Below are positions 54,017-63,793 of a DNA stretch of 64,000 bases, piece by piece. A program made the position numbers and the translations under genes. The stretch spans positions 1-64,000 of the forward strand of contig NTKT01000005.1 of assembly GCA_002457055.1 (NCBI GenBank), written 5' to 3'. The notes under the pieces were generated by a model. That model saw only the letters and a list, made by a program, of their open reading frames with translations. It had not been told where the DNA came from and made no database searches. This stretch comes from Rhodobacteraceae bacterium MED-G08 (lineage in GTDB: Bacteria; Pseudomonadota; Alphaproteobacteria; Rhodobacterales; Rhodobacteraceae). Every line of letters starts with the position of its first letter. Position 1 is the stretch's first letter.

Positions 54017-54078
54017 CAATAGCCAAATTATTTGTAATTCAATATTGCAAAGACAAAAATATTCTTGGGAGGGAATTT

Positions 54079-63102: not shown

Positions 63103-63152
63103 AAAAAGCGGATCGACAGTAGCTCCTCCCAAACCTACTGGATCCGCTTTTT
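63103..63152 (+). terminator. Bidirectional terminator-like hairpin after the EamA gene, loop CTCCTCCC
   Basis: Perfect 12-base outer stem (AAAAAGCGGATC / GATCCGCTTTTT), a two-base bulge, then a 6-base inner stem (CAGTAG / CTACTG) with loop CTCCTCCCAAAC at 63123-63134. A T-run closes it, so on the plus strand it reads as a Rho-independent terminator of the EamA gene; the A-run makes it work on the other strand too. The C-rich loop is a strong anti-Shine-Dalgarno sequence, unusual for a mere terminator. Confidence 0.75.
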
Positions 63153-63241
63153 CAATCTCTCCCCAGAAAGATTAAACCAATTGTGCTAAAGATAGCACAA
63201 GAGTCAACAACTAATTGATTTTATATAGTAAAATGAACGTA

Positions 63242-63324
63242 TAAGTTTAGTTTCCGAAAAAATGTAGGCCCAATAAAAGGGACCAGCCATATGGGAGAGT
63301 ATAGCTGGCCCTGTCCCAAACTTA
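63242..63324 (+). ncRNA. Candidate structured RNA with TGGGAGAG loop
   Basis: An outer 7-base stem (TAAGTTT 63242-63248 / AAACTTA 63318-63324) encloses a hairpin at 63278-63312: AGGG/CCCT, a bulged A, CCAGC/GCTGG, ATA/TAT, and loop TGGGAGAG. GGGAGAG (63293-63299) is exactly complementary to CTCTCCC at 63157-63163, just after the upstream terminator. No promoter is certain. Could instead be a chance fold in AT-rich DNA. Confidence 0.4.
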
Positions 63325-63541
63325 CAATCAAGACAGAAAATCTGACTGCTCATTATTTATATCTTTAGCGAATAAAAAGATTTGGGAGGATATCTCTATC
63401 CGCTTGTGCATTTTAATAACGCTCCGATAATATAGCATATTTTTTTGAATATTGCTAACTATATATTAAAAATTGACAAATAATAAGCAGATACACTTTC
63501 TATACTATAAAAGGAAATAATAGATACTTATCCTCAGTAAA

Positions 63542-63603
63542 TGTAACTTGGTAGATCGTGTGAATAATCATTCTTCTCTTCCTACAACGACAACCAAGTT
63601 ACA
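63542..63603. repeat. 11-bp perfect inverted repeat with 40-base pyrimidine-rich loop
   Basis: TGTAACTTGGT (63542-63552) and ACCAAGTTACA (63593-63603) are perfect reverse complements; TCGT and ACGA inside extend the stem by four pairs after a small internal loop. The apical loop holds TTCTTCTCTTCCT. Consistent with a second small RNA or an mRNA leader of the DUF1737 gene, 190 bases downstream. Confidence 0.5.
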
Positions 63604-63793
63604 CAGCTTTCCAGATCCTTTTATAAAGCCCAACTTCTGAATTGATAAAAAAAGCTAATCCAAAATTTCTGAATGAAAAATCTGCTATAAGATTATAAAA
63701 ATATTGAAAGCTCGTATTTCTTAAATCTGATAATCTTAAATTAATTGTTTAAAAAAATTCATCTGGCTGTTCAAACAATAGGAAAGATAAATA

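Follow-up and report, generated by a model that had tools for sequence, protein, structure and literature searches.

At 63103-63409 in the first 64,000 nucleotides of contig NTKT01000005.1 of Rhodobacteraceae bacterium MED-G08 (the window, meaning the whole stretch analysed), we infer from the sequence two tandem small RNAs (sRNAs), RNA1 and RNA2, which would be transcribed from the minus strand and terminated independently. RNA2 is C-rich and carries segments that resemble the anti-Shine-Dalgarno (anti-SD) sequence (AUCCUCCCAAA and CUCUCCCA), and RNA1 is G-rich with Shine-Dalgarno (SD)-like segments (UGGGGAGAG and GGUUUGGGAGGAGC). The reading we favour, tentatively and at slightly less than an even chance, is that RNA2 acts as an anti-SD riboregulator and RNA1 as its antagonist, a sponge that binds it by loop-loop pairing. 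An initial annotation of the window had pointed to the hairpin at 63103-63152 and suggested that it might belong to an sRNA. The site does appear to be a conserved predicted sRNA locus rather than a terminator with an accidentally C-rich loop, but the strand, loop type, target and family that had been proposed found little or no support. Our comparison covers five genomes, the source genome and four relatives of the same genus found by whole-genome searches with the locus DNA; G003, G009 and G013 below are among them. The features are:

63103-63174, minus strand: RNA1, a predicted sRNA of 72 nt with two hairpins and an approximate 5' end, based on conservation and pairing.
63103-63152, minus strand: terminator hairpin of RNA1, the hairpin first reported, based on fold energy, the kept minus-strand U-run and a wobble change in G013.
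63124-63133, minus strand: G-rich, SD-like loop UUUGGGAGGA of RNA1 (TCCTCCCAAA on the plus strand), invariant in the five genomes and complementary to the RNA2 loop.
63153-63174, minus strand: 5' hairpin of RNA1 with a UGGG loop (UGGGGAGAG), invariant, with nine minus-strand pairs.
63180-63207, minus strand: promoter-like site of RNA1 (TTGACT, 16 nt, CACAAT), a consensus match only.
63273-63409, minus strand: RNA2, a predicted sRNA of at least 137 nt with three hairpins, based on conservation and pairing.
63280-63311, minus strand: terminator hairpin of RNA2 with the loop CUCUCCCA, followed by CUUUUAUU, from a terminator scan of this strand.
63381-63390, minus strand: anti-SD-like segment UCCUCCCAAA of RNA2, which the consensus fold places in the loop of hairpin 1, invariant and pairing with the RNA1 loop.
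63429-63458, minus strand: promoter-like site of RNA2 (TTAGCA, 18 nt, TATATT), a consensus match only.

The four relatives, one of which is the metagenome-assembled genome REDSEA-S34_B6 (Rhodobacteraceae), carry the locus at the same position, flanked by genes for an EamA transporter and a DUF1737 protein, with 74-94% identity over the stretch. The loop and surroundings of the hairpin at 63103-63152 are the most conserved DNA in the locus, and the 16 columns 63120-63135 (loop and closing pairs) are invariant. RNA1 shows a mean pairwise difference of 5.6% and no indels, while the 30 bp next to it, which separate the hairpin from the EamA gene, reach 45%. For RNA2 the difference is 7.8%, again with no indels, compared with 34% in the 81 bp upstream. 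The spacer between the two RNAs (63208-63272) varies by 27% and carries indels, and beyond 63608 the difference rises to 51%. The initial annotation had proposed comparing loop with stem among relatives and had named a freely varying loop as the outcome that would count against it. What we see is the opposite: no change at all in the loop, and compensated changes in the stem.

The hairpin lies exactly where it had been reported and folds better than every shuffle on both strands, with -21.2 kcal/mol (z -6.5) on the plus strand and -25.7 kcal/mol (z -4.9) on the minus strand. It contains G+C pairs and is followed by a T-run on both strands, as in an intrinsic (Rho-independent) terminator, and the minus-strand version is better kept. 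It starts 31 bp past the stop codon of EamA, and on the plus strand it could probably also serve as the terminator of that gene. Its position, its stem and the two T-runs would suit a plain bidirectional terminator between EamA and opposing transcription, with a loop that is C-rich by accident. This is the explanation we disfavour most, because the loop is invariant over 16 columns, the stem is compensated and a conserved hairpin of 22 bp lies beyond it; a terminator loop would not be expected to be the most conserved part.

The predicted structures are consistent among the genomes. RNA1 has a 5' hairpin with the loop UGGG followed by the terminator hairpin with the loop GUUUGGGAGGAGC, and all of its 30 consensus pairs are kept on the minus strand in each of the five sequences (150/150 cells standard). 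In the stem of this terminator hairpin, two pairs have changed on both sides, alternating between A-U and G-C among the genomes. RNA2 starts with hairpin 1 (loop AUCCUCCCAA), followed by hairpin 2 and the terminator hairpin, and 189 of its 190 pair cells are standard on the minus strand. Columns 14 and 33 of hairpin 1 show four pair types (UG, GU, AU and UA) among the five genomes, which supports the fold that places the putative seed, the segment at 63381-63390, in the loop.

Because these structures were themselves derived on the minus strand, it is the variable pairs that are informative about strand. In RNA1 the variable pairs are all standard on the minus strand, and in both RNAs changes to G-U on this strand would be A.C on the plus strand. 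The change in the RNA1 terminator hairpin of G013 is of this kind, and the RNA2 terminator hairpin shows compensatory C-G/U-A as well as wobble changes on the minus strand where the plus strand would have A.C. The nine minus-strand pairs of the RNA1 5' hairpin include two U-G pairs that become C.A mismatches when the plus strand is read instead. The minus U-run after the RNA1 hairpin has at least five T in all five genomes, whereas the plus U-run is down to four in G009 and G003. A terminator-like site with a T-run was found for RNA2 on the minus strand. Upstream of RNA1, TTGACT is invariant in the five genomes (the -10 site is less conserved), and the -35-like site of RNA2 reads TTAGCA in four genomes and TTGGCA in the fifth. 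Taken together, the variable pairs, the T-runs, the RNA2 terminator-like site and these upstream sites lead us to place the functional RNAs on the minus strand.

The initial annotation had read the loop on the plus strand as anti-SD. It is improbable, in our view, that the plus strand is the functional one, as a short RNA from the EamA 3' end or a separate plus-strand sRNA whose anti-SD loop CUCCUCCC acts on GGGAGG leaders. The closeness of the hairpin to the EamA stop codon, its plus T-run and the invariant loop are what one would expect from it. The A.C mismatches that it requires, however, fall at variable and invariant pairs alike, and its T-run is the one that is shortened in two genomes. 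Moreover, the conserved sequence runs 22 bp beyond the plus-strand T-run and so past the expected end of a plus transcript, where neither a conserved hairpin nor TTGACT would be needed for a plus-strand sRNA. As the minus transcript is better supported, the loop at 63124-63133 would be the G-rich, SD-like GGUUUGGGAGGAGC and not anti-SD.

The second line of evidence is the complementarity between the two RNAs. As the initial annotation said, TTTGGGAGGA at 63381-63390 complements TCCTCCCAAA at 63124-63133 perfectly over 10 bases, and both 10-mers are present and invariant in all five genomes. It had taken 63381-63390 for the target of the loop, but this segment belongs to the loop of RNA2, which is itself the predicted anti-SD RNA. 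RNA1 is thus complementary to the seed region of its proposed partner, as in known sponge pairs, with AGGUUUGGGAGGA and UCCUCCCAAAUCU pairing at 13 positions when G-U is allowed and at 10 without wobble. A duplex of 12 bp was computed at -19.8 kcal/mol. Ten perfect pairs were reached in 15 of 2000 shuffles (dinucleotide, both RNAs shuffled), and the energy of the whole duplex was matched in 3/500 and 7/500 shuffles. A second pairing of 7 bp, GGGAGAG with CUCUCCC, has a chance-level length and was excluded from the evidence.

One might ask whether the two segments, UCCUCCCAAA and UUUGGGAGGA, pair with each other inside a single long minus-strand RNA (about 63425 to 63103) that would be a structured non-coding RNA or a switch. 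Both segments are fixed and on the same strand, and the DNA between them is moderately conserved (54% invariant). We nevertheless give this very little credence, since a terminator-like hairpin and T-run lie between the segments, the spacer is variable with indels and the invariant TTGACT stands upstream of RNA1.

If RNA2 and RNA1 work as an anti-SD regulator and its sponge, the C-rich hairpin-loop segments of RNA2 would pair with GGGAGG-type ribosome-binding sites and repress the messenger RNAs (mRNAs). RNA1 would present complementary SD-like segments in its loops as a decoy, its loop GGUUUGGGAGGA pairing with UCCUCCCAAAUC of RNA2 over 12-13 bp, possibly helped by GGGAGAG:CUCUCCC. Binding of RNA1 might then free the targets of RNA2 or mark RNA2 for decay. 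What we observe is the conservation, the structure, the strand bias, the complementarity and the joint occurrence; the transcription, the pairing in the cell, the mRNA repression and the sponge action are what we infer. Several points weigh against this reading. The evidence comes from just five genomes, with few covarying pairs (two per RNA). The cofold of RNA1 and RNA2 is only about 3 kcal/mol better than the separate folds, although loop-loop kissing lies outside the cofold model. The minimum-energy fold of RNA2 buries UCCCAAA against its own UUUGGGA in four of the five genomes; in G013 this seed-hiding fold is lost. An open/closed switch of the seed is possible on these modelled folds. GGGAGG-type ribosome-binding sites are not shifted in carriers of the locus relative to non-carriers. 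Finally, some complementarity between an SD-like and an anti-SD-like loop is expected anyway, so the pairing could simply follow from the action of each on other RNAs.

This last point leads to the most serious alternative, which we consider doubtful but clearly ahead of those discussed above. Here both minus-strand sRNAs are real and act separately, RNA2 on ribosome-binding sites of mRNAs and RNA1 on other C-rich targets, be they mRNAs, further anti-SD sRNAs or the 3' end of the 16S RNA. What we know of conservation, structure and strand fits it equally well, and SD-like 10-mers are not rare, as the genome contains TTTGGGAGGA 12 times and the reversed control 4 times. On the other hand, the match exceeds the GGAGG core, extending to 12-13 bp and invariant, and 10 perfect pairs arise in less than 1% of shuffles. 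RNA1 and RNA2 are also adjacent and always co-occur. A more elaborate form of the sponge reading seems unlikely to us. It would be a self-contained module in which a two-seed anti-SD sRNA, its seed switching between open and self-sequestered states, sits beside a dedicated same-strand sponge that mimics the SD sequence in two loops and is possibly derived from that sRNA by inverted duplication.

Two further observations concern the RNAs themselves. The RNA1 terminator read on the plus strand (63103-63152) and RNA2 hairpin 1 read on the minus strand (63367-63404) have AAGCGGAT...TCCTCCCAAA in common and in the same order, as if by inverted duplication; in G003 and G013 the outer arms are no longer exact matches. 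Opposite RNA2, at 63291-63368 on the plus strand, there is an open frame of 25 amino acids (MGEYSWPCPKLTIKTENLTAHYLYL) whose start and stop are fixed in all five genomes. Codon changes within it run at 34 nonsynonymous to 16 synonymous over the genome pairs, so a coding signal is absent.

The initial annotation had named the ribosome-binding site of aglE as a target. The sequence TTGGGAGG is indeed found at 54065-54072, directly 5' of an ATG, but its 8-base match is at chance level. Carriers have 9-14 copies of this sequence per genome at ribosome-binding-site distance from an ATG, and non-carriers have 10-18. Nothing specific therefore supports aglE, which is one of about a dozen GGGAGG-type sites and whose form TTGGGAGGGAATTTATG also occurs in the non-carrier G012. 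GGGAGG ribosome-binding sites were rejected as a target signature: carriers and non-carriers have them equally often, which leaves us without a target to name.

Sponges and anti-SD loops of this type are known. Established examples of RNAs whose C-rich loops pair with ribosome-binding sites are ar14/cuckoo, sX13 and CJnc190/RepG-type RNAs, while CrfA, RosA and CjNC110 are established as G-rich sponges of RNAs of this kind. Membership of RNA1 or RNA2 in CcsR/cuckoo (ar14) or aR8 is not supported. The ar14/cuckoo sRNAs (NfeR1, SmelA075) and CcsR/RS0680a of Rhodobacter have an identical CCUCCUCCC in each loop (PMC10746234, PMC3927594). RNA2 resembles them in having several hairpins whose anti-SD loops are better conserved than the stems, but its loops are AUCCUCCCAA and CUCUCCCA, its middle hairpin is without the motif and no CCUCCUCCC loop is found in either RNA. 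CcsR RNAs are processed from a precursor shared with ccaF1 (PMC8307010), whereas the neighbours here are EamA transporter and DUF1737 proteins. In Rfam, searched at gathering and permissive thresholds as the initial annotation had advised, no family reached its gathering score for either RNA and the best sub-threshold matches were to unrelated families. An atoC match (23.3 bits, E 0.13) was on the other strand and far under its cut-off of 50.

The closest analogue is CrfA of Caulobacter crescentus, whose G/A-rich stem-loop sponges the UUUCCUCCCU sRNAs SisA-D of the aR8 family (PMC12559287). Both cases are alphaproteobacterial, with an anti-SD C-rich segment opposed by the G/A-rich stem-loop of a second sRNA, and the UCCUCCC core is common to SisA-D and RNA2. 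The SisA-D RNAs are encoded at separate loci, with a single-stranded 10-mer, whereas RNA1 and RNA2 are adjacent and UCCUCCCAAA lies in a hairpin; RNA2 has UAUCCUCCCAAA in place of UUUCCUCCCU. In most species the aR8 RNAs (MmgR, SisA-D) are next to the gene for N-formylglutamate amidohydrolase (FGase), as sisA is (PMC12559287). Here the FGase gene lies on contig C34 rather than C35, and a search beside it turned up no CCTCCC site that looks like an aR8 RNA. RNA1 and RNA2 would work like CrfA-SisA, but these comparisons do not support homology to either. More distant is RosA of Bacillus subtilis, a stand-alone G-rich sRNA that sponges the C-rich RoxS and is from an unrelated lineage; it is longer (about 229 nt) and processed, and the available part of its description does not mention a tandem arrangement (PMC8216469). 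In Campylobacter jejuni CJnc180/CJnc190 and CjNC110/CjNC140, two sRNAs bind each other through CU-rich and GA-rich hairpins (PMC8687705, PMC10470494), but CJnc180/190 are antisense on opposite strands, in contrast to the same-strand tandem here.

CrfA, the sponge RNA of the alphaproteobacterium Caulobacter against anti-SD sRNAs, was reported only in 2025. In a marine lineage of Rhodobacteraceae with small genomes, a tandem pair would, if true, suggest that the arrangement arises repeatedly and that such pairs can be found from sequence alone through invariant complementary loops. RNA1 and RNA2 would add two predicted families that Rfam lacks, and our analysis corrects the first reading as to strand and target.

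Covariance models of both RNAs gave strong matches in the identical 5 of 16 genus genomes and no credible score elsewhere in the genus, although absence from single non-carriers is uncertain because several of these are incomplete assemblies. Apart from the source genome, RNA2 was not detected in a family sample (296 genomes, 295 genera) or an order sample (391 genomes), which were scored with stricter filters that may lose weak matches. RNA1, searched in genus and family only, gave two chance-like matches outside the carriers. Weak matches in G146, G065, G008, G005, G010 and others resemble terminators of the usual kind or coding DNA. The locus had no match in viral contigs, phages or plasmids.

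Next to RNA2 there is one more conserved element:

63538-63608, plus strand: third conserved hairpin (RNA3 or a leader upstream of DUF1737) with the pyrimidine-rich loop UUCUUCUCUUCC, from column conservation.

It has 58% invariant columns against 15-20% in its flanks, and a mean pairwise difference of 21%. Its arms GTAACTTGG...CCAAGTTAC enclose the mostly invariant, pyrimidine-rich TTCTTCTCTTCC, with one compensatory pair; in G013 each arm has a deletion of 3 nt, and the two deletions are paired. It could be a third sRNA or the leader of the DUF1737 gene; its pairing with RNA1 or RNA2 is not above shuffles. Between the divergent RNA2 and RNA3 starts, at 63490-63508, lies a conserved box, GATACACTTTCTATACTAT, perhaps a promoter or regulator site. 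C-rich hairpin-like leaders, for example GCACCTCCAAAAAATCCTCCTAGAAAAGATT, are also found 5' of a DUF1737 paralogue in L076, L077 and L078 (the latter two on the reverse strand, about 1330-1400), and in L076 and L077 the leader comes after a tRNA-like sequence.
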